From assembly GCA_030832185.1 (NCBI GenBank), contig JAURJQ010000020.1:1-47799 (forward strand): a stretch of 47,799 nucleotides of DNA. Direction: 5' to 3'. Below, piece after piece: positions 17,863-34,113 of the stretch. The position numbers were made by a program, and so were the translations under genes. The stretch's first letter is position 1; the number at the start of each line of letters is the position of its first letter. The DNA comes from Chitinophagales bacterium. GTDB taxonomy: Bacteria > Bacteroidota > Bacteroidia > Chitinophagales > JADJOU01. The notes below the pieces were generated by a model. It was given only the letters and a program-made list of their open reading frames with translations, had not been told where the DNA came from and did not search any database.

Positions 17863-19974
17863 CTAATCTGTTCTAAGTTTAATCCCAATAAAAAAAGATC
17901 GAGGCATATTGGGTCCATAGATATAGTTGCTATCTCTATTTTTACCTAAATCAAAATCATTTTGATATTCATTGAGCATATTTTTCATACCCGCAAACAA
18001 TTCTAAATCATGCTTGAATTTAGACAAACAAAGGGTATACGAAAGCTTACAATTGAGCTCTGAAAATGATTTAGTTTCTACCATTTGATTCCGAGTGAAG
18101 TTAATAGCTCCTCCAAAGTGTGCTATCTCCATACTGCCGGTGTATACATAATTTAGATTAAAACTCCATATCTTATCTGGTGTGAAACTAATATTAGCGA
18201 ATCCATAGCTATTGGGCGTTCTCAAAAACAATCGCCTCGGCTCCAAGCCTTGTATATATTCTACTGGATTTTCAAATTCACTATTCTGCAGGGTCACCCC
18301 AGTTTCGACTTGTATCTTGCGATTATAATTTGCCCTTAATTCTAGTGTAAATCCTTTAACTGTGGCGCTCTGACCATTTCTCTTTTCAAATAATTCTCCG
18401 AAACTATCTTGCCCTAAATTTTCAAGTATGAAGGCATTCTGAAGCTTGGTATAAAATGACTCGAGCGTGAATCCAGCGATGACTTTATTCCATACCTTAT
18501 CATAATTTACCGAAGCGCTGATGCTCTGCGACCGTTCTTCTTTTAGATTAGGATCTAGTCTGACTCTAGAGACTCCTCCACCCGCAAATGCAATATGTAA
18601 ATCTTTATCAAAAGCCTGCGGAGCTCTAAATCCAGTACCATAGCTCAATCTAAACTGTGTACTCGAATTGGATTTATACAATAAGGCTAATCTAGGATTG
18701 AAAACGAGGTTTTCGATAAGGTTGTGCTTATCCATTCGCACACCAGATAGCATGTTTAACTTATCAGAGATGTCCCAATCACTTTGCACGAAGGACCCCC
18801 AGTTTTTCGCATGCTGATCTACCTTGTATCTATAGCTCGCTATTTCATCTAGGACTTCATCGGATATATATTCTGAGCCAAGAGTTATGACATGTCTTCG
18901 TTTAAATAAATTGGCAAGGTCATGATTGAGCTGCATACCTCCCTGCCATGTCGTCGTATTAGAGAGACCATAGGGTGGATTCTCTAGGTGTACTCTGATT
19001 TCCGCTGGAGAGTCTGGGTATATCCCCGTATAATGATTTCTTTTCGTATTCTGAAGAGCTGCATATAGTATGAGTGTGGTCTTATCTTGATTGAAATTGA
19101 GCTGATAGTCTGCACTGGCCATCCATATCCTATGGGTTCGCTCCTCGGACTGCTGTCTCAGATAGGCTGACTTATCTGCCATCTCACCTCCAAGACGGTA
19201 TTCCTCCAAATGACTAAGAGAAAACTCTAATTTTTGATTCTGATTTAATTTTAAAAATGAAGTTAGCCCCAAGGATGTCAGGTCAAGTTTTGGCAGTTCG
19301 GAAAAATTATCTTGATTAGCATCAAAGAAATCTCGATTCCGTTTATTGAAAAAAACCGTAATACCTGCATTATGACTATCGCTCACTAGAGTAGCATTTC
19401 CCGTGATATTGAAATCATTTGACTTGCCATCAATGCTTTGTAAAAATGAGCCAAACTCATAACCACTCTTTTTTGGCAATTTTGTAATGACATTGACCGT
19501 ACCGCCTATAGCACTGGAACCGTAGAGCGAAGAACCCCCTCCTCGTATGACCTCTATTTTCTCTATCATATTGACAGGCAACTGCTCCATACCATAAAGA
19601 CCCATCAGCGGACTGAAAATAGGTCTGCCATTTATTAAGATTTGCGAATAGCCCCCTTGCAGTCCATTCATTCTAAGCTGGGTATAATTGCAGGTCTGAC
19701 AGTTAGTTTCCACCCGAAGACCTGGCTGAAATTTCAAGCCCTCAGACAAATTACAAACTTGGAGATTGTTGAGTGTTTTACTATCCAGAATATTGACTAT
19801 AACCGCACTTTCTGTCTTCCGTTTAAACGTTTTCGTTCCCGTGACGACTACTTCGGAAATAAATTTATTTTTAGAACTTTTAGAAGATTCTAGATTAGTG
19901 GAATCAGATTGTGCGAACAAAAAATTTGATACAAAAATAAATAGTAACAAACTCCACTTTATTTCCCAATACAT
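17863..19974 (-). CDS. TonB-dependent outer-membrane receptor
   Basis: 703-residue outer-membrane transporter. Signal peptide at 1-22 (ends FLFAQ). The plug domain covers about 40-165 and includes VVVTGTKTFKRKTESAV, the QILINGRPIFSPL segment and IEVIRGGGSSLYGSSAIGG. A 22-strand barrel fills the rest and ends with an aromatic-rich strand (RSFFIGIKLRTD). The plug has cysteines at 74, 92 and 95; the last two form a CxxC (NCQTCNYTQ) seen in a subset of Bacteroidota receptors. There is no N-terminal carboxypeptidase-like domain, unlike the receptor at 28257. The general type suggests uptake of a metal complex or cofactor, but no neighbouring binding protein or lipoprotein identifies the substrate. 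Confidence 0.92.
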   Translation of the reverse strand: MYWEIKWSLLLFIFVSNFLFAQSDSTNLESSKSSKNKFISEVVVTGTKTFKRKTESAVIVNILDSKTLNNLQVCNLSEGLKFQPGLRVETNCQTCNYTQLRMNGLQGGYSQILINGRPIFSPLMGLYGMEQLPVNMIEKIEVIRGGGSSLYGSSAIGGTVNVITKLPKKSGYEFGSFLQSIDGKSNDFNITGNATLVSDSHNAGITVFFNKRNRDFFDANQDNFSELPKLDLTSLGLTSFLKLNQNQKLEFSLSHLEEYRLGGEMADKSAYLRQQSEERTHRIWMASADYQLNFNQDKTTLILYAALQNTKRNHYTGIYPDSPAEIRVHLENPPYGLSNTTTWQGGMQLNHDLANLFKRRHVITLGSEYISDEVLDEIASYRYKVDQHAKNWGSFVQSDWDISDKLNMLSGVRMDKHNLIENLVFNPRLALLYKSNSSTQFRLSYGTGFRAPQAFDKDLHIAFAGGGVSRVRLDPNLKEERSQSISASVNYDKVWNKVIAGFTLESFYTKLQNAFILENLGQDSFGELFEKRNGQSATVKGFTLELRANYNRKIQVETGVTLQNSEFENPVEYIQGLEPRRLFLRTPNSYGFANISFTPDKIWSFNLNYVYTGSMEIAHFGGAINFTRNQMVETKSFSELNCKLSYTLCLSKFKHDLELFAGMKNMLNEYQNDFDLGKNRDSNYIYGPNMPRSFFIGIKLRTD

Positions 19975-21117: not shown

Positions 21118-21504
21118 TTATAAATTTAAAATTATTCTTTTGGCAATTTCTGACAATTCGGCTGGACTCAATTTCAATCTAGGATAATCAAAAATGAAAT
21201 CGCGACCATTCTCGATAGGCATCAAATGAATATGAGCATGCGGCACTTCGAGTCCTTCAATCCACATTCCTATTCTAGTATTAAATGTCTTTTTCATAGC
21301 TAAGCTTAATTTCTTTGAGAATAAAATTAAATCTGACAAATCTCTATCCTCCAATTCATAAAACTCATCAATCTCTACCTTAGGGACTATTAATAAATGT
21401 CCTTCTTTTAATGGATTGATATCCATAAAGGCAATACAGGTTTCATTTTCTGCAACCTTTACGCTTGGGATTTCCCCTCGAATGATCTTAGTAAATACTG
21501 TCAT
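21118..21504 (-). CDS. HIT-family nucleotide hydrolase
   Basis: Histidine-triad protein, expected to hydrolyse adenosine nucleotide derivatives (Hint/PKCI type). With the frame numbered from an upstream TTG (21516) the triad is H93, H95 and H97 in VPHAHIHLMPI. I set the start at the ATG at 21504 because the resulting MTVFTKIIRGEIPS is the usual family N-terminus. The ENETCIAFMDINPLKEGHLLIVPK stretch near 20-45 is also typical. It follows greA by 23 nt and is likely cotranscribed with it, a pairing commonly seen in Bacteroidota. Confidence 0.93.
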   Translation of the reverse strand: MTVFTKIIRGEIPSVKVAENETCIAFMDINPLKEGHLLIVPKVEIDEFYELEDRDLSDLILFSKKLSLAMKKTFNTRIGMWIEGLEVPHAHIHLMPIENGRDFIFDYPRLKLSPAELSEIAKRIILNL

Positions 21505-21527
21505 AGAATAATCCAAAGATGGATTAG

Positions 21528-21998
21528 TTATTTTGTAATTTCCAGAATCTGGTACTCCATAATCCCAGCAGGAGTTTGAATAGCCACTTTCTCGCCTTTT
21601 TTATGACCTAGTAAGCCCTTTCCGATAGGAGATATCACAGATAATTTACCTGTCTTGAAATCTGCCTCAATTTCAGAAACCATTTTATAAGTAAATTCCT
21701 TATTTGCTTTTATGTTTTTTACTTTTATAGTAGTCAAAATACTGACCTTAGAGTCGTCTATTTCTTTTTCGTCTAAAATTCTCACATTGGTCATCGCCAT
21801 TTCTAACTGAGCTATTCGCTTCTCCAGTTTAGCTTGCTCCTCTTTAGCTGCATCGTACTCTGCATTTTCGCTAAGGTCTCCTTTCTCTCTTGCCTCTGCT
21901 AATGCCGCACCTGCCTCTGCTCTGCCAGCAGTTTTCAGATGATGCAAATCTGCTTTTAATTTATCGTAACTCTCCTTGGTCAAAAATACACTAGCCAT
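21528..21998 (-). CDS. greA: Transcription elongation factor GreA
   Basis: Rescues backtracked RNA polymerase by stimulating transcript cleavage through the secondary channel. 156 residues, standard length. The N-terminal antiparallel coiled coil (about 1-75) carries the conserved acidic tip region in AREKGDLSENAEYDAAKEEQ (about 36-55). The C-terminal FKBP-like domain ends with SPIGKGLLGHKKGEKVAI, then a short strand. It is first gene of the greA-HIT unit. Confidence 0.97.
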   Translation of the reverse strand: MASVFLTKESYDKLKADLHHLKTAGRAEAGAALAEAREKGDLSENAEYDAAKEEQAKLEKRIAQLEMAMTNVRILDEKEIDDSKVSILTTIKVKNIKANKEFTYKMVSEIEADFKTGKLSVISPIGKGLLGHKKGEKVAIQTPAGIMEYQILEITK

Positions 21999-22025: not shown

Positions 22026-22059
22026 TAAAAAGAGGTATCCACCAATGGTGAACACCTCT
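22026..22059 (-). terminator. Intrinsic terminator of the surface-protein operon
   Basis: On the minus strand a hairpin AGAGGTGTTCACCATTGG / TGGATACCTCT is followed directly by T5. Outer stem AGAGGT pairs with ACCTCT, inner CACCA with TGGTG. It lies just after the PorV-OmpA gene stop (22085) and before greA. Confidence 0.8.
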
Positions 22060-22073
22060 CTATTGTCAGAATG

Positions 22074-22084: not shown

Positions 22085-24235
22085 TTATTTTACAACTTTC
22101 AGTTCTATTCTTCGATTGTTTTTACGACCTATGTCGGAATCATTTGTATCTTTAGGTTTAGTATCTCCAAATGCTTCTGAGCTAATGCGGGAAGGATCTA
22201 TTCCCTGCTGTACCATAAGGTCTTTGATCGTCTTTATCATTTTTTCGGTCAACTCCATGTTACTTAGCGCATATTTTCCGTTATCAGTATGAGCATCTAT
22301 CTTGATCTTCATACTTGGATTATCCTTCAATACATTAACTACAGTGCTTATTGCTCTTTTACTCATTCTACTTAAAGAATCAGTTCCTGCCTTGAATGAA
22401 ATAGTATTGGCGTATTCATTTAACTCTTCCTGAGGAGTCTTCTTCGGCACATCAGCACCTGTCTCGGTAGACTCAGAAGGTATTTTTATTTCTTCTTTTT
22501 TAGGAGCAAGTGTTTCTACTTTAGGTGCACTAGGCACTACGACTGGCTTCTTAGTTTCTACCTCCTTAGGCGCTTCAGTCTTTCTTGGAGCTGAACTTGG
22601 TCTAGACATATTTTCTAATTTAGCATCCAAAACTTTTACCTCTACTCGTCTATTTCGCTGTTTACCCTCTTCAGAACTATTGTCACCGACTGGTTTAGTT
22701 TCACCATACCATTCAACCTTCATGCTGACGTCTGGAATAGATTTAAATTCATTCAAATATCGAGCGACCGTTTTAGCTCGAAGCATAGAAAGTCGCATAT
22801 TATTTTCAGGAGTACCATCATCGTCGGTATGACCTTCTATAAGGAAACGGGTATCAGGATAATTTTTTAGCATTTCGCCTACTACCATGAGTGCACCTTC
22901 TCCTCTATCCGTCAGAATAGCAGTACCTGTCTTAAACTCAATATTGCTAGCAAAATTTTTCAGCATATCGTTCACCTTTTTATATTCGATAACCGTCTCT
23001 ATCTTAGCTGGAGCCTCACGGAATATCGTATCATATTTTGTGATATACTTTATTTCAGGTTCCGGCTTCTTCTCAGGAACTACAGTCTTCGCTACCTCTA
23101 CTGCTTTAGCTATCACGTATTCATCACAGTAGCTATATTTATTTGTGAAATAAACAAACCCAAAATTATGCGTCCCACCGAAAACCCATGAAGGCCGGTA
23201 GTTATAGCTTATTTCAAGCACAGCAGGATTCTTAGATTTTTTCCTATCCTTCAATTTTAAATCATAGGATATACCTGCTGAAGCGCCCATATGAGCCCTA
23301 GTAGTGGTCTCTTTATTTAGTGCATTATCTTCATATAAGAAACCTGCTCTAAGTGAAACCTCTTCTCTGAATGAATACTCCAGCCCAAGTCCATAGTTAT
23401 TCGGTGTAAAGGAATTATAAACAAAATTAGTAGAAATAGATAATCGATGAATAGGTTTACAAAAGATATCTGAAGCCGCTGGTTTATTGCCGAAGTATAA
23501 ATCTTTGCTAATAGCCATAGAAAATTGAGTAGGCAATTCAAATTTAGCCGCTCTATTAAAGAATGGTAAATCATATTGAGAACTACCTAAAGGTACGGGT
23601 CTATTTAAAATCAAACCATCTCCTGCATATTTCATCGGAAATCCGAGATTTCTAACAAAGACGCCAAAGTGAAAATCCTCTTTCTCTCCTGTAGTATACT
23701 GCATGCCCGCATCAATAGCAAAACCAGTTGCAGATAAGTTATTGATAGATTCGTTTATTAATCTTCCCGTAACACCTGCTCGAACACCTCGTCCAAAAAC
23801 TCTAGCATAAGACAACCCAATATTTAGATAAAATGGCGAGAAAGTACTTAAAGGTTCTGGGCTTATAGAGGTCGTCCGATCCATATCTCCATAAGTCATA
23901 TATCCTATAGAGAAGCCAATATTATTTCCATTTGAAATTTCGCCTCCTACTCCCACATTAAACAAGGATGTGCCTGTAGCAGATAGCCAACTCGTATAAT
24001 TGCTAAATACTGACATTCCTTTGTTATGGGCCAGACCAGCTATATTGGTTCCTAAGGCATCAATCCCGCGCACATTGGCCGAATTTATTCCTAGCAGACC
24101 CATGGTTCTCGCTTGTGTATTGATCAATAACTCATAGGCGCCAGCCTCTCCTACTCTATCGGAATTTCCTGCATTACCAGATACTCCCAGTATAAGTAAA
24201 CCAACACACCACGACCATTTATAAAATTTCATCAT
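22085..24235 (-). CDS. PorV/PorQ-type outer-membrane barrel fused to two OmpA peptidoglycan-binding domains
   Basis: 716 residues. Signal peptide about 1-22. Residues about 28-365 look like the PorV/PorQ barrel family: the opening LLINTQARTMGLLG and NVRGIDALGTNIAGL, repeated beta strands, and GLGLEYSFREEVSLRAGF near 278-295. A linker (KKPEPEIKYITKYD) leads to an OmpA-like domain at about 420-535 with FLIEGHTDDDG, NNMRLSMLRAKTVARYL and NRRVEVKV. After a Pro/Lys/Glu-rich linker a second, more divergent OmpA domain covers about 605-716 (KIDAHTDNGK, GDTKPKDTN, KNNRRIELKV). PorV members deliver T9SS cargo at the outer membrane. The tail should tether this barrel to peptidoglycan. Third gene of an operon with only 25 nt to the upstream gene. 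Confidence 0.85.
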   Translation of the reverse strand: MMKFYKWSWCVGLLILGVSGNAGNSDRVGEAGAYELLINTQARTMGLLGINSANVRGIDALGTNIAGLAHNKGMSVFSNYTSWLSATGTSLFNVGVGGEISNGNNIGFSIGYMTYGDMDRTTSISPEPLSTFSPFYLNIGLSYARVFGRGVRAGVTGRLINESINNLSATGFAIDAGMQYTTGEKEDFHFGVFVRNLGFPMKYAGDGLILNRPVPLGSSQYDLPFFNRAAKFELPTQFSMAISKDLYFGNKPAASDIFCKPIHRLSISTNFVYNSFTPNNYGLGLEYSFREEVSLRAGFLYEDNALNKETTTRAHMGASAGISYDLKLKDRKKSKNPAVLEISYNYRPSWVFGGTHNFGFVYFTNKYSYCDEYVIAKAVEVAKTVVPEKKPEPEIKYITKYDTIFREAPAKIETVIEYKKVNDMLKNFASNIEFKTGTAILTDRGEGALMVVGEMLKNYPDTRFLIEGHTDDDGTPENNMRLSMLRAKTVARYLNEFKSIPDVSMKVEWYGETKPVGDNSSEEGKQRNRRVEVKVLDAKLENMSRPSSAPRKTEAPKEVETKKPVVVPSAPKVETLAPKKEEIKIPSESTETGADVPKKTPQEELNEYANTISFKAGTDSLSRMSKRAISTVVNVLKDNPSMKIKIDAHTDNGKYALSNMELTEKMIKTIKDLMVQQGIDPSRISSEAFGDTKPKDTNDSDIGRKNNRRIELKVVK

Positions 24236-24260
24236 AACTATCTTCTTCTTACTTGTGATA

Positions 24261-27200
24261 TTAAAAATTACTGACGTCTGCTGCTCTCATGATGGCGAAT
24301 AGTTTTAAAACCTTTGTGCCAACATTTGGAGCCTCTACATTGATATAATATACTCCACTCGCAACCATTACGCCAGTACTTGTCCTGAGATCCCAATCAA
24401 TAGTATTATCGTAATTTATATTGCCTGAATTGTCACCATATTGTCCATCGACTATTCCCTTTGAGTCTAATTTTAGTCTTCTGACAAGAATACCGTCTGT
24501 AGTAAAAATGCTAACAACACTGTTTTTTGGAACATTGACTATTTTGACTACATTCTGAGTAGCATTTAACTCGTAGGAAGAAAATGCATAGTATGGATTC
24601 GGGACCACCGTCATTTTATCAAATGCGGAAGTGACCAAGCTATCACTTTTTATTGGCTCCAAACCTTCTGTAGAAAATTCATAGATTGATGCGTCTCCTG
24701 CGTACTTTGCATATGGCTTCTCTACTCTGACTTTAATTCTCACCTCGGTAGGTATTTCATAAACCCCAGCGGCATTATACATACTAAAGTTTTTAGCAGT
24801 CAAAGGAAAACAAGTCCATGCTATCTGACGATAGAAATTTGCCACATTAGCATTTAATGTAGCGTTAGCTCCTACTCCATTAGTTAAGTTAAAATTATCG
24901 TTTAATAATTTTCTATCAAGGGCAGCTCTATCGCCATTATCATAGGCTGTATTCATCACATAGACGAATTGACTACCTCCAAAAATTGGATTTCCAAGAA
25001 CGGTTTCTGTAGTGCTATCTGGATCCCAGACCATATTCGCGGCATTCTTACCTCTAAATCTAGAATTCTCCCCAAAATAGACATTCATACGCACACCTGT
25101 TTCTAAATTGATAGCATATCCTGGAAACCATCCAAGTCCTTTATCGCTTCCATCGGGCTGACCATCTTGACCTACACCTGGCGACTGACGGAGCTGTCCT
25201 TTTAAGGCATTCCCCTCGGTAAATAACTCCGACTCACCTGTTTCAAAAACTACAGCTCTGGACCACTTGGTCTTTTCATTGGTGATGACTAAATCTAAAC
25301 TATAAATAGAATCGAGAGTGTTTTCAGGACCCTCACCCCAAGTAACCATGGTCAAAGAATCCTTGGCTACTCTGCGCCACTTGAAACCTGGACTAAAGCT
25401 TTGATAATTATTTTCTGCAGCTACAGCTGTTACATTAGCATTTGCTGCAAGACAATATGGAGCGAATTTACCCCCTAAAACCTTAGCAAAATTCCCTACT
25501 GAATCAGTCCAAACCCTGCGACCATTGATTACATTATAGGCAGATGCATTCTTGGCTCTTACATCATTCACTGCGCCAGATCGAATCCAGTCCTTATAAT
25601 CTACTCCGTCTACGTCTGCTAATAAACTCAGCCATTTCTTAGAGCTATCTTTAAAGCCTATACTTCCATCTATATAGCTATAAAACTTATTGCCATTTCT
25701 AGATATGGTTCCTAAAGTGTCTGGAAATGTAGTAGCCACTGCTATACCATAGCTCTCCACCTGACCATTTATCCTGGCATAGATGGATTGACTAAAATCT
25801 CTATCTAACTTTCCCTCCGAAACAATCGCTCTATTCGAGGGGTCAGTTATATCCATAGTCCAGCTAGTCTGTGCCAAATCATATTTATTAGGATCTTGAA
25901 CAGCAACAACTTCGGAGAATGAAAGGTTAAATTTAGCATTCTTCAATTTGAATGGATCGATAACTTTTACTAATATAGGTGATTTACCTCCAGCATATTT
26001 TAAATCCAACTGACTACCATTCGTTAGAATTTTTTCCTCTTCACCTTTTTCCAAATCCAGAAAATATTTCCCATGACCTTGGCCAGATTTTCTAGTCACT
26101 GGTATGCCTTGGTAATAGTCTGCTTTGGTTTTCACTCCCCAAAAATCATTATTGTGCGGAGTTCCTTTAAAGATTTTTATAGCGTTACTGAATATCAACT
26201 GATTCTGCTGAACCTCGGTAGGAATAGTTGGATTTCTATAATTATTATAGGCGAAAGCCACTGTGGCGTAATAATAGGTCTTGTTATTAGCTAAAAACGT
26301 CTGTCCTTCGAACTGAAAAAGGTCACGATCTACGACGATTTCTCTTTCAATACCCTTATTTGGCAATGCTAAATCTTGGGTAATTACCGTAACCGATTGT
26401 CCATTAACTACCTCCTTTCTATAATTTACCGCTCTATTTATTGAGTTCTTTTTATCCATAATAGTCAGAAGTTTCGCCTTACTATTATCTTTGAGGTCTT
26501 CTAAATTACTTACGGCATTTTCACTAACTATTTGATAAATAGCATATCCCTCGAATTTATACGTAGAATCATTATTCCATGTTCCTAATGGAACATCAAT
26601 ATTTTTTAAATTGTAATTTTCTCCGAAGTTATTTGATCCCACGGGATTCTCCAGAGTAAAGAATAACTTTTTAGGGGTCTCAATGATTTTTAGATTAGGA
26701 GCATCTGGTCCTGGAGACTTTTCAAAACAAAAATCAAATAAGCGCTGCGCCTTATCATCTGCTTCTTGCAGATAACTCATAACTGGCCTACACCCTGTTT
26801 GTGATCCTTTAGGTGGCCTTACGTAGACACAACCTATAGTTATTGTTTCTTTAGTACCGCTATTCATATCAAAAGGTCCAGAATTTTGGAGCCATCTCAA
26901 ATCTCTAGGTGTAAAATTTCGGTCACACATAGACCATTCTCCCGGCTTAGCTGGATCTCCACTGAAACAAAATTTGGTCGCTGGAAATCCAGGTGTAATA
27001 CAATCACTGCTCACCGTTAAGGAAGAGCCATTGCTAGCAAAGCCCATTTGGAAATTTCTAGTTTGAGGTTCATTAATTGGATCATTGACTAAGCCACCTT
27101 GCCCATTTATAAAATAATTAAATGAAGACAAACCAATCGGCAATCCATTTGCTTTTTTAGGACCTTCGAAGAAATCTACTCCAAAAATTGGTGGTTGATC

Positions 27201-28232
27201 TAAATAGCCTAGAGTTGTAGCATTCTCATCGTAATCATCTGAATTATAAACAAATCCCATAGAGCGAGTCACATCACAACCTACATAGTCATCGTTATAG
27301 TTACCTAAATCCGCATCCATAAACTGTGACATATAGGTCTGCTCTAAGGTTACATTTGATTTATTATGTACATCATAGGTATAAAACGTCATATCATTCA
27401 GTTGGTCTGAGGACTTAAAAGCAAATGCCAAACAATTCATCTGCGCACCGATAGGTGTTGAAGCTGGATTGACATGATCATTTCCGACATCATTGATCAC
27501 CCAAAAAATCATCTGATCAGCATACGTAAACTTATTACAAGGACTTGTGCAAGCCGATAACGGATCATTGCTCACTGGCTTAATGGATGGAAGGTCTCCT
27601 AGCTCTGGGTCATAAACACAGTTTCCATTTTTATCAAAGAATGGGGCTAAGTCATCGGAAAGTTCCTCTGCTGTAAATGTCTTTTTTACATTGATAAGAT
27701 ATCTATTGCCTTTTCCTGGCCATTCTAATATAGATTGGCTAATCTTAATACCTGCTATAGCGTCATTTATTTCTTCACTTGTTACAGACCAGTATTGATC
27801 AAATTTCTCACACTTGGCTTTATTTATTGTAGCTTCGCCTTGCTTTATAGGGCCAGGCCACCATGCGCTTTTATTCGCACTATAGGTTATAGCGGCCATT
27901 CTTAAGTTGCCGCCTACAAGACCTGATACCCATACCGAACCAGCGAATAAAGGATTTATAGCTCTCACTTTATTTTTCACTTGCTCCTCTGTTCGCTTAG
28001 GGGCTTCATACTGCGCTGTATTTCTATCCCACCAGAGGTCACCGCTATTGAGAAGCATAGCTCTAATATTGTTGACTTCTAAGAAAATAGTAGATTTTCC
28101 TCGAACACAATCCCCCGCTCTCGAGGTTAGCGGTTTTTTATGTGGGGCTGTATTTACATCTACAGCTGTATTCAAAGCGGCATACATGTCTCCTAGCATG
28201 ACACCTAGCACAAACATTAATATTTTTTTCAT
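24261..28232 (-). CDS. Large secreted surface protein with T9SS-type N-terminal module and FlgD/sorting-like C-terminus
   Basis: 1323 residues. Signal peptide at about 1-18 (ends MYAAL). The N-terminal module (about 40-230: LNSGDLWWDRNTAQYEAPK, GSVWVSGLVGGNLRMAAITY, KSAWWPGPI) is of a kind I associate with large T9SS cargo proteins of Bacteroidota. Further on is a region rich in Asp/Asn with VGCDVTRSMGFVYN and several Cys. The C-terminus (about 1215-1323) begins MTVVPNPYYAF, continues with beta strands VVSIFTTDGILVRRL and ends SGVYYINVEAPNVGTKVLKL, like FlgD-Ig/T9SS sorting domains. It probably is exported and held on the surface. No enzyme motif was recognised. Sits 24 nt after the receptor gene and 25 nt before the PorV-OmpA gene. 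Confidence 0.7.
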   Translation of the reverse strand: MKKILMFVLGVMLGDMYAALNTAVDVNTAPHKKPLTSRAGDCVRGKSTIFLEVNNIRAMLLNSGDLWWDRNTAQYEAPKRTEEQVKNKVRAINPLFAGSVWVSGLVGGNLRMAAITYSANKSAWWPGPIKQGEATINKAKCEKFDQYWSVTSEEINDAIAGIKISQSILEWPGKGNRYLINVKKTFTAEELSDDLAPFFDKNGNCVYDPELGDLPSIKPVSNDPLSACTSPCNKFTYADQMIFWVINDVGNDHVNPASTPIGAQMNCLAFAFKSSDQLNDMTFYTYDVHNKSNVTLEQTYMSQFMDADLGNYNDDYVGCDVTRSMGFVYNSDDYDENATTLGYLDQPPIFGVDFFEGPKKANGLPIGLSSFNYFINGQGGLVNDPINEPQTRNFQMGFASNGSSLTVSSDCITPGFPATKFCFSGDPAKPGEWSMCDRNFTPRDLRWLQNSGPFDMNSGTKETITIGCVYVRPPKGSQTGCRPVMSYLQEADDKAQRLFDFCFEKSPGPDAPNLKIIETPKKLFFTLENPVGSNNFGENYNLKNIDVPLGTWNNDSTYKFEGYAIYQIVSENAVSNLEDLKDNSKAKLLTIMDKKNSINRAVNYRKEVVNGQSVTVITQDLALPNKGIEREIVVDRDLFQFEGQTFLANNKTYYYATVAFAYNNYRNPTIPTEVQQNQLIFSNAIKIFKGTPHNNDFWGVKTKADYYQGIPVTRKSGQGHGKYFLDLEKGEEEKILTNGSQLDLKYAGGKSPILVKVIDPFKLKNAKFNLSFSEVVAVQDPNKYDLAQTSWTMDITDPSNRAIVSEGKLDRDFSQSIYARINGQVESYGIAVATTFPDTLGTISRNGNKFYSYIDGSIGFKDSSKKWLSLLADVDGVDYKDWIRSGAVNDVRAKNASAYNVINGRRVWTDSVGNFAKVLGGKFAPYCLAANANVTAVAAENNYQSFSPGFKWRRVAKDSLTMVTWGEGPENTLDSIYSLDLVITNEKTKWSRAVVFETGESELFTEGNALKGQLRQSPGVGQDGQPDGSDKGLGWFPGYAINLETGVRMNVYFGENSRFRGKNAANMVWDPDSTTETVLGNPIFGGSQFVYVMNTAYDNGDRAALDRKLLNDNFNLTNGVGANATLNANVANFYRQIAWTCFPLTAKNFSMYNAAGVYEIPTEVRIKVRVEKPYAKYAGDASIYEFSTEGLEPIKSDSLVTSAFDKMTVVPNPYYAFSSYELNATQNVVKIVNVPKNSVVSIFTTDGILVRRLKLDSKGIVDGQYGDNSGNINYDNTIDWDLRTSTGVMVASGVYYINVEAPNVGTKVLKLFAIMRAADVSNF

Positions 28233-28256
28233 AACTAATTATTTTATTGTTTTGTT

Positions 28257-31200
28257 TTAAAACGAAAGTACGGCTCCCAACTGAATAATTCTAGGACGAA
28301 TAAACATAGAATTTCTTCCATCCGGTATCTCTAAAGCTACATTATATAGATCTCTAAATGCTTGGCCATATCCCACGGCTACAGCTTCTTTTGAAGTATA
28401 ATCTAGCTGGCCATCCGGACTAGCGAGATAGCCATCTGTAGTCGGACTACCTGTAAATCTGTATACATCTAGCACATTCATAGCATTTAAGAGATTGGTG
28501 ATTTGCAGATAAATATTCAAACCATACTCTCTTCTTGTATCCAGTCCTTTGGTTTTTGTAGAATCAAATTTTCCAAACTTAAAGGTCAAATCCTTATCTA
28601 CTTTGAAGTTAGCCATGAATCTCCAAGGTAAAGTCCCCGAATTAATATCCCCCAAATTAACCGCCCTGGCAGTAGTATTCATAAAGGATTCTGGCGTAGC
28701 AGCTGTCTGCGCTGTAAACGGGGTTCCAGATCGAAGATTCAAATCTAAATTAAAGGTAAAATCTCTTAAGAACTTAGGAATACCCTTGTTATAAGGGTCT
28801 CTACTATCAAATTTATAGTTGGCTATGAAATTCAAATTATGCCTTGTATCCCAGCCTAAGGGGTAAATTGTTCTTAAATTTCCTAAGCCCGCATTGATGA
28901 GATTTAACTGAGCCGTGCGCGAGGAAGAGGTGCCCTCAGCAAAAGACATAGTATAATTTGCTTTGATCTTTAGATTCTTCATTCTGCGCTGCTCAAAGGC
29001 CAATCCAATAGACTTTACAGTAGAAAAATCTGAGTTATTGAACGTATTATAGGCCGCAGGATAAGCTCCCTGTAGACGAGTAACCGAAATTTGATTCGAA
29101 TATTCTCTGTAATTAAAATTAACTGTTAGCGTTGACCTAGCATTCAACCGCTGTTTAAACCCAACCTCTAAATCTGTAGTAGATGAAAAGTCCAAATCAG
29201 GATTATTAATGAAAGATGTATTTCTCCTCTGAAGTAGATTATAGTAATTTAAAGCGGTAGGGGCCCCTACTTCTGGTCTTTGGGTCAAGATATCATAGTG
29301 AGCAAACAATAGCGCAAAGGTGTCAATATTGAATGAAAGATTGATCCTCGGGGAAAAAGCAAATCGCGGATTTACTTTTCTAAACATTAAACTTGGATCA
29401 AATGTAGTAGATCCCATATCTCTTTTCGCTCTCTCTTCTGGGGTATTTCCTATCAAATAAGGTGTAATATTTCCCCCTGATTCTATTTCGATAGGATTAG
29501 CTCCAGCCAGCTCGGTTCCATCTTTTGAATACCATTGATCTCCTACTCTATATCCAGTGATACGACTAGGTCCAGTAGCTCTATCGACATAGACTACAGC
29601 ATCTTTAGACAGATTTTTAGGGTGATTCGCAGCGACTCCATTAACAGAGTCTACCATGCTTATCGTTCTACCTCCTTGAGGCACATATGGGTCTATAAGC
29701 GTATTCGTATTTGGATCAAAATAATCTACACGCAGACCTACATTTAAAGCAAGAGACTTTAATTGAAATCTATCTTGAATATAGGCTGCCCCGTATCTAG
29801 GCATAAGTGCTGCTACGTGGCGTAAGAAATTTCCTTTCTTATCCTTGGCGGTAAAAAACTCGTTAAACGTGGTAGACATTCCCAACTGATTGCCATATAC
29901 ATCATATCCTGTTCCTGATGCCAGACCATTATTGAGCAAATCATCCGCAGAGAACCACTCCAATTTCATTTTATTAGGATCTAGCTCATGAATATTAATC
30001 CTCACTGTAGAATCTCCTCCAAACAAATCATTTCTCAAATTTCTCGAAAAATTCGTTTGAGTACCATTTGATACTTCTTTATCGTAGAGAAGAGTATCAA
30101 ATGCTGCAAAGGTGATAGTATCCTGTTTGATATAGTCTTGCAGTCTCATTTTCACCGTACCATTTCGCATAACCATCAATGGATTGAAATTTCTTTCATT
30201 ATCCGGAGCTAAATGATTATTCAAAAATCCTGACTGCGCTGTAGTCCATAAGGTAAGAGGATTGATGTTATATGAAGAATTGACCCTCTGCTCTAACTCA
30301 TAACCGATTTCTATCGTATGCTTATTTATAAACGCACTTTTATTCTTCACTGGCTCTATATCAAAGTTGAAAGCTCCTGTGGCTCTGAACTGCATGTTTT
30401 CTTGCTTTTGGATGCCATTGAATACCCGCGTAGCAGGGAAAAACAAATCATGCACAGTAATATTCGCTCTTAGTCCATTGATTACACCCCCTGCGTTTTC
30501 TATTGCTGAAATAGAATTTAAAGGCCCAGCATCGGTTTTGCCTATTGTATTATTATACATATTGATAAAATACGCCGTTTGAGCTGCTGCTGGAGCATTG
30601 ATACTACCTGGCGTGAATCTTACTCCCCTAGAGTTTGAGGTGTTCGCTGATACAAAGTCTGTAAAAGTTAAGAACTGGTTCGGGGCATAATAAACTTTTT
30701 CTCCATCACTTCCTGTCTTTCTCTCCCAGGTCCAATCTCTATTTTCTTCAAATTTGCCGATATAGCCATAGTGCCATGGATTGTCTCCCCCGACAGGTGA
30801 TTTGAAATCTTGGCCTGATAGTGTAGCATCAAACTGAAGAATCATGGTGGTATTTCGGATAGACTTCTTCACTTGCTTATCCGCATTGAAGAGCGGCTGA
30901 TATAACCTTAGGTAGGCATTATAACTCTTATTTTTATAAATAGGGTTATTTTGATAGTTTAATAGAGAGTAACGTTGGACATAATTATTAAATTGATTAT
31001 CCTCTCCTCTAAATCCTAAAGTTAAGTTTGTACTATTCTTCACTACTTTCCAATCTAGTTTTCCATTCACTCTTAGTGTTCTAGCGGATGTATTTTGGTG
31101 TGAATTAATTCTTTCTAAATCATTAATGCCCAAAAAACTTTGAGATAAAAGCAACTGGCTGCCGTCAGCAGATAATCGGTAAGGATTCTTTTGTATCTCG

Positions 31201-32153
31201 CTCATGACGTCATCCTTCACTTTCCAGTTTCCGTTGATAGTAGGATTATTGTCACCTTTATACTCATATTCCGCATTGATAGAAAAGCCTAGAATGGCCT
31301 CTCCTTTTCTTTTTTCATATACACCCGGAGCCATGGTATCTATTATCGATTTTCTTCTAATCAGTGGACCTCTCAAACTAAAGCCTCCCAAATTGTATCC
31401 AAAGGGATCCAAAAACTGGGACGTCAATCCCTCTACTTTACCCATGAGCTTATCTGAAGGACCCTTGGTAATAATAGAAATGACAGCTGCGTCTGCATCT
31501 CCATACTTAGCTGGAATACCACTGGTAAATACTTCCATTTGTGCGATATCGGTAGCAGGTACATTGGGAGATCCTGTCATTTTCACCCCATCTACGAAGT
31601 AAACCAAGCCTCCTTCTCGACCACCTCCTGCATTCAAACCACCTCCTACATCAGACTGCACAATACCCCCAGTACTAGCAGCTATTGAGCCTACATCTCG
31701 CATAGAGGCTTCTTTAACCTCTGCCTCACCTATGATGTTTTCTTTTGGCTTATATACATCAATCAGTTTAGGTTGCTTTACGGGTGCTTTTGCAATAATA
31801 TCAATTTGCTTTTTAGTATTACTCTTTTGCTCCATAGAGAAGTTTTGTTCTGTAGGTCTTCCTGCTGATACTTGGACACCCAGCTCTATGGCTGACGGCT
31901 TACCTACTGAAGTGGCCATTAAGTTATAGGTACCAGGGTTCAAACCTTTTAAGGTATATCTTCCATTGGCATCTGCTTTGGTGCCTTTAGAAGTTTTATC
32001 CTTTCCGGCCTGGTCTCGAATGACTATAACCAGTGCAAATGGCACTGGCTCTCCTTTATCATCCAATACTCGTCCCTGTATCTCTCCTGTCTGGGCTGCA
32101 GCAGTGAATGAAGTTAACAACAAGACGCTTAATACTTGTAAAAATTTATTCAT
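28257..32153 (-). CDS. Large TonB-dependent receptor with carboxypeptidase-regulatory-like domain
   Basis: 1298 residues. Signal peptide about 1-20 (SFTAAAQ). A CarboxypepD_reg-like beta-sandwich spans about 22-110 (GEIQGRVLDDKGEPVPFALV, NGRYTLKGLNPGTYNLMATS). The plug follows at about 145-240 with VYFVDGVKMTG and FTSGIPAKYGDADAAVISI, then a very long barrel to the C-terminal strand (QLGAVLSF). The length and pre-plug domain resemble SusC-like receptors, but there is no SusD partner. It is first gene of a three-gene operon with the 1323-residue surface protein and the PorV-OmpA fusion, which suggests they work as one outer-membrane assembly or export/uptake system. The ligand is unknown. Confidence 0.85.
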   Translation of the reverse strand: MNKFLQVLSVLLLTSFTAAAQTGEIQGRVLDDKGEPVPFALVIVIRDQAGKDKTSKGTKADANGRYTLKGLNPGTYNLMATSVGKPSAIELGVQVSAGRPTEQNFSMEQKSNTKKQIDIIAKAPVKQPKLIDVYKPKENIIGEAEVKEASMRDVGSIAASTGGIVQSDVGGGLNAGGGREGGLVYFVDGVKMTGSPNVPATDIAQMEVFTSGIPAKYGDADAAVISIITKGPSDKLMGKVEGLTSQFLDPFGYNLGGFSLRGPLIRRKSIIDTMAPGVYEKRKGEAILGFSINAEYEYKGDNNPTINGNWKVKDDVMSEIQKNPYRLSADGSQLLLSQSFLGINDLERINSHQNTSARTLRVNGKLDWKVVKNSTNLTLGFRGEDNQFNNYVQRYSLLNYQNNPIYKNKSYNAYLRLYQPLFNADKQVKKSIRNTTMILQFDATLSGQDFKSPVGGDNPWHYGYIGKFEENRDWTWERKTGSDGEKVYYAPNQFLTFTDFVSANTSNSRGVRFTPGSINAPAAAQTAYFINMYNNTIGKTDAGPLNSISAIENAGGVINGLRANITVHDLFFPATRVFNGIQKQENMQFRATGAFNFDIEPVKNKSAFINKHTIEIGYELEQRVNSSYNINPLTLWTTAQSGFLNNHLAPDNERNFNPLMVMRNGTVKMRLQDYIKQDTITFAAFDTLLYDKEVSNGTQTNFSRNLRNDLFGGDSTVRINIHELDPNKMKLEWFSADDLLNNGLASGTGYDVYGNQLGMSTTFNEFFTAKDKKGNFLRHVAALMPRYGAAYIQDRFQLKSLALNVGLRVDYFDPNTNTLIDPYVPQGGRTISMVDSVNGVAANHPKNLSKDAVVYVDRATGPSRITGYRVGDQWYSKDGTELAGANPIEIESGGNITPYLIGNTPEERAKRDMGSTTFDPSLMFRKVNPRFAFSPRINLSFNIDTFALLFAHYDILTQRPEVGAPTALNYYNLLQRRNTSFINNPDLDFSSTTDLEVGFKQRLNARSTLTVNFNYREYSNQISVTRLQGAYPAAYNTFNNSDFSTVKSIGLAFEQRRMKNLKIKANYTMSFAEGTSSSRTAQLNLINAGLGNLRTIYPLGWDTRHNLNFIANYKFDSRDPYNKGIPKFLRDFTFNLDLNLRSGTPFTAQTAATPESFMNTTARAVNLGDINSGTLPWRFMANFKVDKDLTFKFGKFDSTKTKGLDTRREYGLNIYLQITNLLNAMNVLDVYRFTGSPTTDGYLASPDGQLDYTSKEAVAVGYGQAFRDLYNVALEIPDGRNSMFIRPRIIQLGAVLSF

Positions 32154-32261: not shown

Positions 32262-33191
32262 TTAACAAAAATCGAGCTGATTTAACTTGATTATAGCTTG
32301 TTCGGCCATCTTCTTTTTGCTTTCATATGTCCAACCAGCAATATGTGGAGTAACGAATAGTTTATTTGTCTTCAGAAGAGATTTAACTCTTTCATCCATT
32401 TTAAAAGGCTCATTGTCATAGACATCAAGCATAGCTCTTTTGATAGTCCCTTGTTCTAATCCGGTCCATACATCTTCTAAAACACATATTGCTCCGCGGG
32501 AGGTATTGACCAAATCTATGGATTTGTTAAAATTCTTGAGAAAAGAATTATTTATAAAATGATGCGTATCGCTATTCAAGGGTAGATGAATTGAAACTAA
32601 ATCTGCTTTAAAATAAATTTCTCCCATACCCACTTGCTTAGCGCTAGTCTGTGCTAAACTAGTACCCACATCGATACGATCATAGACGAGCACTTCCGTA
32701 TCAAAACCATTCATGAGCTTTGCTAGTCGACTTCCGTTATTTCCGCAGCCAATGATGGCTATGGTTTTCCCAGAGAGTTCTTCCCCTCTGTTGGACTCTC
32801 TACTCCAAATTCCCTCGAGCATCTCTGTCTGGGCCTTGTTTAGATTATTGTAAGCAGACAGGATAAAGCCTAAGACATGCTCAGCCACCGCATTTGCATT
32901 TCCCTCGGGAGTAGATATAATTTGAATCCCTTTTTCAGAGCAGTAGGACTGATCTATTATTTCCAATCCTGATCCTACACGAATAATACATTTTAAGCAC
33001 TTAGCATGGTCTATCAATTGCTTGTTTATATTAATTTTACTATTGACTACGAGGATCTCATAATCGGCTATATGTTCTTGAATAGAATCGGAGGTGACCT
33101 CCCATAATTGATCACAACTATAGCCTAGATTTTCTAACCCATCGGTAAGACTCTGGTGAAATTCCTCGGTAATTAGGGCTTTCTTTATCAT
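32262..33191 (-). CDS. D-isomer-specific 2-hydroxyacid dehydrogenase
   Basis: NAD(H)-dependent oxidoreductase, 309 residues. The Rossmann motif is GCGNNG (148-153) and the catalytic residues are R232 (NTSRGAI), E261 (YDNEPF) and H283 (TPHIAGWT). The substrate-binding half shows RVGSGLEIID at 71-80. The fold matches phosphoglycerate dehydrogenase (SerA) and erythronate-4-phosphate or glyoxylate reductases; 309 residues means the regulatory ACT domain of long SerA forms is absent. A serine-biosynthesis role is plausible but not proven, as no serC or serB lies nearby. Its ATG is preceded by ACTGA-rich repeats. Confidence 0.88.
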   Translation of the reverse strand: MIKKALITEEFHQSLTDGLENLGYSCDQLWEVTSDSIQEHIADYEILVVNSKININKQLIDHAKCLKCIIRVGSGLEIIDQSYCSEKGIQIISTPEGNANAVAEHVLGFILSAYNNLNKAQTEMLEGIWSRESNRGEELSGKTIAIIGCGNNGSRLAKLMNGFDTEVLVYDRIDVGTSLAQTSAKQVGMGEIYFKADLVSIHLPLNSDTHHFINNSFLKNFNKSIDLVNTSRGAICVLEDVWTGLEQGTIKRAMLDVYDNEPFKMDERVKSLLKTNKLFVTPHIAGWTYESKKKMAEQAIIKLNQLDFC

Positions 33192-33348: not shown

Positions 33349-34113
33349 TCATTTGCTAATTACCAAATCCTCCGACAAAGCACAAAACTGTTCTACACTA
33401 AGTTGCTCTGGTCTTAGGTTTTTAAAAAGCTCGTAGCGGGCAGTATTCTTAAACTGCAGACCTTTAAGAGAGTTGCTAAGCATTTTCCTCCGCTGATTAA
33501 ACGCAGCTTTTACTAGTTTTTTCAATGGAGTGTATTCAGCCAGAGGCGCTGGTCGTCGCTGCAAAGATATCACACCTGAAATCACTTTAGGGGGTGGATC
33601 AAATGCGTCCGCAGGGATGTCGAATAAGTAATTTACTTCATAAAGCGCTTGAGTTAAGACACTCAGTATTCCATATTCTTTGGTGCCATGCTTTGAGGCA
33701 ATGCGCTTAGCTACTTCTTTTTGAAACATTCCTACACTATTCACCACGTATTCCGAGTTTTCTATAATCCAGAACATGATGAGATTGGAGATATTGTATG
33801 GATAATTACCTACTATACTGACTTGCTTACCTATACTAGTCTTAAAATCAAAAGTTAGTACATCTTGGTGATAAATCTTATCTTCTAGTTTGGGAAATTT
33901 TTTTGGCAATTCTATAACAAATCTGTCGTCTTTTTCTATCAATCGATAATCCGTGATATCCAAGGCCAATAGACGCTGAGTTAGAGCGCCCATGCCCGGG
34001 CCTACCTCTAGAACAGTTTCTAATGGAGTCAATGCTTGAACAGCCGCTACGATACTGGTCAAAATAGTCTGATCTACCAGAAAATGCTGCCCGAGTGCCT
34101 TTTTTAACTCCAA
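33349..34113 (-). CDS. rsmA: 16S rRNA A1518/A1519 N6-dimethyltransferase (KsgA)
   Basis: SAM-dependent enzyme that dimethylates two adjacent adenines in helix 45 of 16S rRNA during late 30S assembly. 254 residues, family norm. Seen are the opening KKALGQHFL (4-12), the SAM-binding VLEVGPGMGALTQ (about 34-46), the catalytic NYPYNIS motif (about 103-109) and DFDPPPKV-like (DAFDPPPKVIS near 173-183). Divergent from pepA, sharing a 105-nt spacer with back-to-back -7 boxes. Confidence 0.96.
   Translation of the reverse strand: MELKKALGQHFLVDQTILTSIVAAVQALTPLETVLEVGPGMGALTQRLLALDITDYRLIEKDDRFVIELPKKFPKLEDKIYHQDVLTFDFKTSIGKQVSIVGNYPYNISNLIMFWIIENSEYVVNSVGMFQKEVAKRIASKHGTKEYGILSVLTQALYEVNYLFDIPADAFDPPPKVISGVISLQRRPAPLAEYTPLKKLVKAAFNQRRKMLSNSLKGLQFKNTARYELFKNLRPEQLSVEQFCALSEDLVISK

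Follow-up and report, generated by a model that had tools for sequence, protein, structure and literature searches.

A receptor, surface-protein and barrel locus of Chitinophagales as a candidate type IX-delivered analogue of SusCD

What might join a TonB-type receptor, a 1323-residue protein without a known domain and a PorV-family barrel in one locus? These three genes, here termed R, S and V, lie in a 47,799-nt stretch of a Chitinophagales bacterium (assembly GCA_030832185.1, contig JAURJQ010000020.1, positions 1 to 47,799; the window). A first-pass annotation of this DNA had described three large adjacent genes and proposed that their products form one assembly. The coordinates proved exact, with R, S and V following each other on the minus strand at intergenic gaps of 24 and 25 nt (Table 1), and the proposed assembly is partly supported by the comparisons below. 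We assign a probability of about 0.5 to the reading that R-S-V encodes one outer-membrane complex, an analogue of SusCD whose surface subunit would be delivered by the type IX secretion system (T9SS). A literature search found no published description of the trio in titles and abstract starts, with article bodies reached by search terms only and subscription papers mostly uncovered.

Rare co-occurrence of the three families elsewhere had been set as the result that would refute a joint assembly, and the surveys gave the opposite. In the neighbourhoods of 37 loci from the same order (L052–L088), R, S and V were found together in this order in 35; in the two others, L084 (contig of 5.1 kb) and L088 (8.3 kb), R stands next to an incomplete S and V is missing. 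A second collection, which shares part of its genomes with the first, contained all three genes in 13 of 14 loci, some of them fragmentary at contig ends, the fourteenth (L048) being a short paralogue. S was matched in 50 of 60 genomes, the window's own included (E ≤ 1e-5, short paralogues counted). As the flanking greA, HIT-domain, ksgA and dehydrogenase-like genes are conserved too (Table 1), R-S-V looks like one vertically inherited locus in most of the order.

In a draw of genomes from the phylum, S was matched in 81 of 296 (E ≤ 1e-25). This draw had suggested that S is nearly confined, within its class, to the window's order, a notion we rejected when a draw of 149 genomes from the class exposed it as a sampling effect: S was present in 128 (at 1e-50; not limited to full length, so that G354 and G415 may represent paralogues or fragments) and V in 126 (at 1e-17). 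Of the 125 class genomes for which a strong V is listed, 114 have an S match on the V strand, no more than 4 kb upstream. The median spacing between profile ends is 67.5 nt; it exceeds 300 nt in 26 genomes, where the S match often ends before the S terminus. Among the other 11, five have V on the plus strand within 1.2 kb of the contig start (G424, G431, G437, G439, G450), the S rows of G400 fall outside the matches listed, G378 lacks S, and G358 (with a split V), G429, G100 and G362 carry S on other contigs. S without V was seen, among the matches listed, in G409, G410 and G415. Two full-length S matches surround a single V in one genome (S-V-S; G443, contig C40, 30612–40217), and three others (G364, G385, G388) have a second full-length S on a separate contig.

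At the family level, 54 of 64 listed families of the class draw have an S match. Those without one are f20, f23, f24, f25, f28, f29, f31 and f118, together with f92 (genome of 0.5 Mb) and f101 (genome 69% complete, V present), one further negative genome being unlisted; our guess is that the S-negative families are well-studied ones. In the window's own order, SprA persists in the genomes without S from these two families, four of f18 and three of f20, and loss of S tracking loss of the T9SS was accordingly rejected. The f18 genome G022 has both PorU and PorZ. An f20 genome (G024) kept SprA and a PorU-type match of 116 bits, below the cut-off, and has neither PorZ nor the trio.

Beyond the class, we viewed every PorV-family match at E ≤ 1e-5 (56 in total) in five genomes from other classes (hereafter outgroup; G087, G127, G139, G323 and G346), each with ~12 kb of upstream and 2.5 kb of downstream sequence. 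An R-like gene and a gene with an S-type C-terminal domain (CTD) lie upstream on the same strand in 25 cases (11, 2, 5, 2 and 5 in the five genomes, respectively), 21 of them arranged R-S-V and four (L147, L163, L171, L180) as S, other genes, R and V. The remaining 31 are without an R-S pair, and 11 of these miss the V model built here; L169 has receptor-like open reading frames (ORFs) but no S. The N-terminal module of S is clearly like that of the window in six loci, one or two per genome (L151, L156, L168, L173, L182 and L184; 126–365 bits), while mainly the CTD, R and V are recognisable in the others and most S bodies have diverged. At L180 (3218–9071), the gene adjoining S ends in a canonical T9SS tail (PF18962, 5.4e-10) and matches CBM56 weakly.

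For R, the carboxypeptidase-like domain noted in the first-pass annotation was recovered as CarboxypepD_reg (Table 1), and a single-sequence search of window R against Pfam gave no plug or barrel domain. Among TonB-receptor plugs of solved structure, that of the colicin I receptor is the best match to the R family profile (7e-13), which also aligns with the N-domain of a SusC homologue (9hfj, 2.2e-6); by its plug, R is predicted to belong to the TonB-dependent receptors. TonB-box-like stretches, identified by eye, are found in the R of relatives and are weak in window R; signal peptides were likewise assessed by eye. R of the outgroup locus L179 (5524–8341) is broken into two overlapping frames of 284 and 666 amino acids, the result of a frameshift or an assembly error.

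Library searches assign S to no known family: window S has no Pfam match at 0.01 and no NCBIfam match at 0.1, its family profile has no match in the PDB at E 1, and outside the CTD it matches neither PorU nor PorZ. Its T9SS character was derived from family comparison. The N-terminal module also occurs in shorter orphan cargo-like proteins, and all four orphans tested pass the T9SS type A cargo model TIGR04183 (36–49 bits). BLASTP scans with the window proteins across 20 neighbourhoods of short S-like genes (450–960 amino acids) detected V in none of them and a single receptor-like ORF, weak at 81 bits. A loose lipobox pattern appears in 4 of 41 core S (Cys 43–45) and 2 of 25 outgroup S, none of them convincing. 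S was modelled as two halves (alignments A4 and A5, 10 sequences each), of which the CTD part alone was used; the N-half model has no Foldseek match below 1e-3.

Window S does not match the type A cargo models TIGR04183 and PF18962 themselves. Among six other trio S proteins, NCBIfam returned PorZ as the top match in three (5.5e-9, 4.5e-5 and 0.07), nothing in two, and TIGR04183 as the top match in one; TIGR04183 hits two of the six, at 12.5 and, for that one, 19.9 bits, under its cut-off of 23. We built CTD models from the last 125 residues of 27 PorU, 23 PorZ (the longest ORF per locus, individually unchecked) and 22 orphan sequences (a small control set), after removing six near-copies from the 41 core S rows and keeping further close pairs. 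All but one of 66 trio CTDs score higher on the PorU or PorZ model than on the orphan-cargo model, and the outgroup trio model is the best other class for 27/27 PorU and 20/23 PorZ CTDs. In hhalign comparisons, the outgroup trio CTD aligns with PorZ at 4.5e-15, PorU at 2e-14 and orphans at 2e-10, the core trio CTD with PorU at 1.4e-10, PorZ at 6.5e-9 and orphans at 2e-4. The pattern W[DNE][GLHMIV], picked after inspection of the sequences, falls within the last 75 residues of 41/41 core and 23/25 outgroup trio S, 27/27 PorU and 20/23 PorZ, and of 1/22 orphans. All 41 core S end in R..D or R..T followed by a final F, L or Y. The sole Foldseek match of the C-half model below 1e-3 is PorZ (5m11; 8.5e-5, 22% identity), and 8gl8_D, a chain of the T9SS extended translocon complex, follows at 0.067. 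By these comparisons the CTD of S appears closest to the CTDs of PorZ and PorU, and S would count as a T9SS CTD protein in the wider sense, given the CTD homology and a translocon in the genome. The T9SS-like modules proposed for the 1323-residue protein have thus gained support from the NCBIfam matches of trio S proteins and orphans, the CTD models and the PorZ match in Foldseek.

V had been annotated as a PorV-OmpA protein. Its PorV-family barrel was confirmed (PorV_fam, NF033709; Table 1), as were two OmpA-like domains in the window protein, and the V family profile matches PorV (6h3i_F) at 1.5e-14; the OmpA part is not general. Among 48 same-order V proteins (near-copies counted), 40 measure 347–396 amino acids, four 502–594 (L054, L059, L060, L074) and four 713–722 (L035, L036, L052, L053). 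Pfam finds one OmpA stretch in each V of 502–594 residues, two in L036, L052 and L053, and none in three short V tested. Since most V are short and the three tested lack OmpA, we rejected the fusion as the essence of the system; nor was V accepted as a YiaD- or Pal-type lipoprotein, as those scores stem from the OmpA domains. V of L054 (12011–13792) also scores above the Pfam threshold for PorP_SprF (28.2 vs. 22.3 bits), a hint that PorV-family and PorP_SprF barrels are related.

We built a PorV-family tree of 61 proteins: 15 V of the window's order, 25 V of the outgroup trios, 18 of the 31 remaining outgroup genes, and PorV, PorV2 and PorQ of the window's genome. Every one of the 40 trio V falls on the same side of a branch with support 82/83 that recurs in 86% of bootstrap trees. 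Core V form a clade (100/100) that also takes in one or two copies per outgroup genome. As far as the sequences tell, V forms a clade separate from PorV, PorQ and PorV2. Identity with canonical PorV was rejected on this ground and because the genome's own PorV adjoins PorU elsewhere. V appears to be one more cognate barrel, S being its putative cargo. Yet another PorV-family clade, apart from PorV, PorQ, PorV2 and the trio V, is found in L153, L167, L174 and L185 (G087, G139, G323 and G346), loci that have two adjacent PorV-family matches and neither R nor S.

The separate clade bears on whether S might instead be an ordinary cleaved T9SS cargo that travels via canonical PorV and is merely co-regulated, V being an unrelated FadL-like channel. 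Two cited studies leave room for this: long CTDs are, like short ones, cleavable in Prevotella (PMC11969387), and PorV itself is termed a FadL homologue, as is BamG (PMC12578637); PorU, moreover, is present in the window's genome. We nevertheless consider it quite improbable, as the S CTDs score higher on the PorU and PorZ models than on that of orphan cargo, and this CTD type pairs with this V clade in the surveyed loci.

Within the outgroup genomes, divergence is shared by the three genes. With L179 set aside for its split R, tree distances within genomes correlate, over the remaining 24 of 25 loci, between R and S-CTD (rho 0.73, 0/2000 permutations), R and V (rho 0.60, 0/2000) and S-CTD and V (rho 0.28, 30/2000). 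Such joint divergence, together with the placement of V in the family of the T9SS shuttle barrel PorV, would also suit a secretion or maturation device, where R spends TonB energy on display or release of S or other cargo at V and imports nothing. That the T9SS is already powered by proton-driven motors (PMC10202324), that 31 of the 56 PorV-family genes in the five genomes do without an R-S pair, and that short S-like cargo occurs at 20 loci without a strong R make such a device very improbable.

The genomic context is consistent with type IX export. SprA was detected in 57 of 60 genomes, the window's own included, and in 50/50 genomes that are ≥90% complete and ≤5% contaminated. The window's genome encodes SprA, PorV beside PorU, PorV2 beside PorU2, and PorZ, along with a PorQ-like gene at 210.5 bits (cut-off 220). 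In agreement with the earlier remark that SusD is missing, PF07980 has no match in this genome, other SusD-like families lying outside the search; it is also absent from three relatives and three outgroup genomes tested.

Among known systems, PorZ-PorQ and PorU-PorV share with R-S-V the pairing of a CTD-bearing surface protein with a PorV-family barrel, and their CTDs are nearest to that of S. PorU and PorZ are described as retaining their CTDs, bound to PorV and PorQ (PMC10202324), and these uncleaved CTDs as having an extra hairpin in common (PMC11285876). The trio departs from these pairs in an S that is dissimilar outside the CTD, in the separate clade of V and in the TonB receptor that it includes. 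SusCD and RagAB resemble the trio in combining a CarboxypepD-type TonB receptor with a large, presumed surface protein, and in occurring in many copies in some genomes; the trio differs by T9SS-type CTD delivery, an extra PorV-family barrel, an S without a convincing lipobox and a genome without a PF07980 match. Type B cargo, with PorP/SprF (and PorE), likewise clusters with a cognate PorV-like barrel, and that system has a peptidoglycan-binding partner, the part proposed here for the OmpA domains of V (PMC10202324); in contrast, the S CTD is nearest PorU and PorZ, V passes the PorV-family cut-off, OmpA is fused to the barrel and a TonB receptor is present. PorU2-PorV2 is another neighbouring cargo-barrel pair in the same genome, with a barrel of a different clade and a PorU2 that, unlike S, matches a sortase model. 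BamG, which binds the surface protein BamH in outer-membrane assembly (PMC12578637, PMC12611786), is likewise a small barrel with a surface partner; the accessible text of these two papers draws no tie to the R-S-V trio.

Together, the CTD type of S, the separate clade of V and the precedents of retained CTDs lead us to infer that S is exported by the T9SS, kept on V and acts with R. Sequence comparison itself establishes the conserved trio, its family identities, the CTD type, the separate V clade and the correlated divergence; export, retention, contacts of S with V and R, and uptake would follow from these. S would reach the periplasm by Sec and be exported via its CTD by the type IX system. 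Rather than being released, it would be held by that CTD in V as a dedicated barrel, on the model of the PorZ CTD in PorQ and the PorU CTD in PorV, and serve as the surface partner of the TonB-energised R with its SusC-like N-domain. The trio would thus resemble the SusCD pair, except that the T9SS would bring the lid or binding protein and a barrel, in place of a lipid anchor, would hold it. In the window's genus and its nearest relative, the two OmpA-like domains of V may further anchor the complex to peptidoglycan, a predicted binding. A role in uptake is suggested because R has a plug and a SusC-like N-domain and because copies have expanded with mostly diverged S bodies.

The position of the locus could be read differently, as that of an envelope-structure or adhesion unit in which S is a T9SS adhesin or coat, V its tether and R a sensor or load-bearing element, without uptake. 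A place fixed between ksgA and greA in most same-order loci agrees with such a unit, as do OmpA domains on V in the window's genus, its nearest relative and four other loci, and an S N-module that recurs in orphan cargo without receptors. We regard it as unlikely, given that R retains its plug, with the TonB-box-like stretches of relatives, and that substrate diversity is a better fit to 11 loci with mostly diverged S bodies in one outgroup genome.

Several observations weigh against the SusCD-like complex. For a transporter specific to one nutrient, a single-copy locus next to housekeeping genes is an unusual setting, and PF07980 occurs in two of the five outgroup genomes (seven and three matched stretches), so that the trio is not a simple replacement of SusCD. 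Both half models of S are poor (mean pLDDT, the predicted local distance difference test, 46 and 48), hence neither fold nor contact surface of S can be derived from them, and the PorZ match, found with a low-confidence model, has low template-modelling scores (0.13/0.11). The CTD classes overlap as well: S of L180 fits the generic TIGR04183 better than PorZ, and because hhalign puts PorU closer to orphans (7e-11) than to PorZ (8.6e-6) and a trio model is also the best other class for 12/22 orphan CTDs, the 'PorU/PorZ type' is no sharp group. As for retention, a PorZ-like insertion grafted into RgpB left CTD cleavage intact (PMC11285876), and the correlation that matters most to this idea, that of S-CTD with V, is lower than the other two. 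Lastly, the listed S matches of the class genomes G100 and G362 lie on contigs other than that of the strong V.

With somewhat less confidence than for the complex itself, we tentatively propose that Bacteroidota have, besides SusCD and plain receptors, a third general type of TonB-linked outer-membrane transporter. In this type, R-S-V, the T9SS would deliver a surface subunit that is kept by a PorV-family barrel of its own, with a separate barrel clade for each kind of retained cargo. R-S-V would be old in the phylum and multi-copy in some classes; in the window's order it would occupy a mostly constant site, and several of the class's families would lack it. If true, two signature systems of Bacteroidota, TonB-linked uptake and type IX secretion, would be joined in one operon family, one clade of 'PorV/PorQ family' genes would gain a role, and a testable rule would follow, namely that each PorV-family clade serves one kind of CTD-retaining surface protein. 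As S is matched in 54 of 64 families of the class draw, R-S-V may even be a basic part of the envelope, overlooked as some families lack it.

Table 1. Features of the R-S-V locus and its flanks in window coordinates. Flank counts refer to 44 loci, several of them near-identical, and part of the misses are contig ends; residues are given in amino acids (aa).
Feature	Position	Strand	Evidence or remark
R, TonB-type receptor with plug and large barrel, 1298 aa	28257–32153	minus	by-eye signal peptide
R, CarboxypepD_reg N-domain, aa 25–108	31830–32081	minus	PF13620, E=5.2e-17
S, 1323-aa protein	24261–28232	minus	by-eye signal peptide; no known domain by library search
S, N-terminal module, aa ~40–500	26733–28115	minus	common to shorter orphan cargo-like proteins
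S, CTD, aa ~1200–1323	24264–24635	minus	PorU/PorZ-like T9SS CTD
V, PorV-family barrel with two OmpA-like domains, 716 aa	22085–24235	minus	
V, barrel, aa 36–359	23159–24130	minus	NF033709, 120 bits, cut-off 90
V, OmpA-like domain 1, aa 434–529	22649–22936	minus	PF00691, 5.3e-36, two stretches
V, OmpA-like domain 2, aa ~614–714	22094–22396	minus	Pfam and NCBIfam scans
Terminator-like hairpin between V and greA	22029–22061	minus	15 pairs
greA, downstream flank	21528–21998	minus	kept in 39/44 loci
HIT-domain gene, downstream flank	21118–21516	minus	kept in 36/44 loci
2-hydroxyacid dehydrogenase-like gene, upstream neighbour	32262–33191	minus	34/44 loci
ksgA (rsmA), upstream flank	33349–34113	minus	29/44 loci

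The hairpin 3′ of V is suggestive of a terminator. Across the region, 13 terminator-like sites were found vs. 6.9 ± 2.4 in shuffled sequences, and 40 promoter-like sites vs. 37.0 ± 6.1 expected, neither class of site constituting proof. Elsewhere in the window, a separate TonB receptor with Pfam plug and barrel domains is encoded on the minus strand (17863–19974); its top NCBIfam match is a heme/hemoglobin receptor model, below the cut-off.

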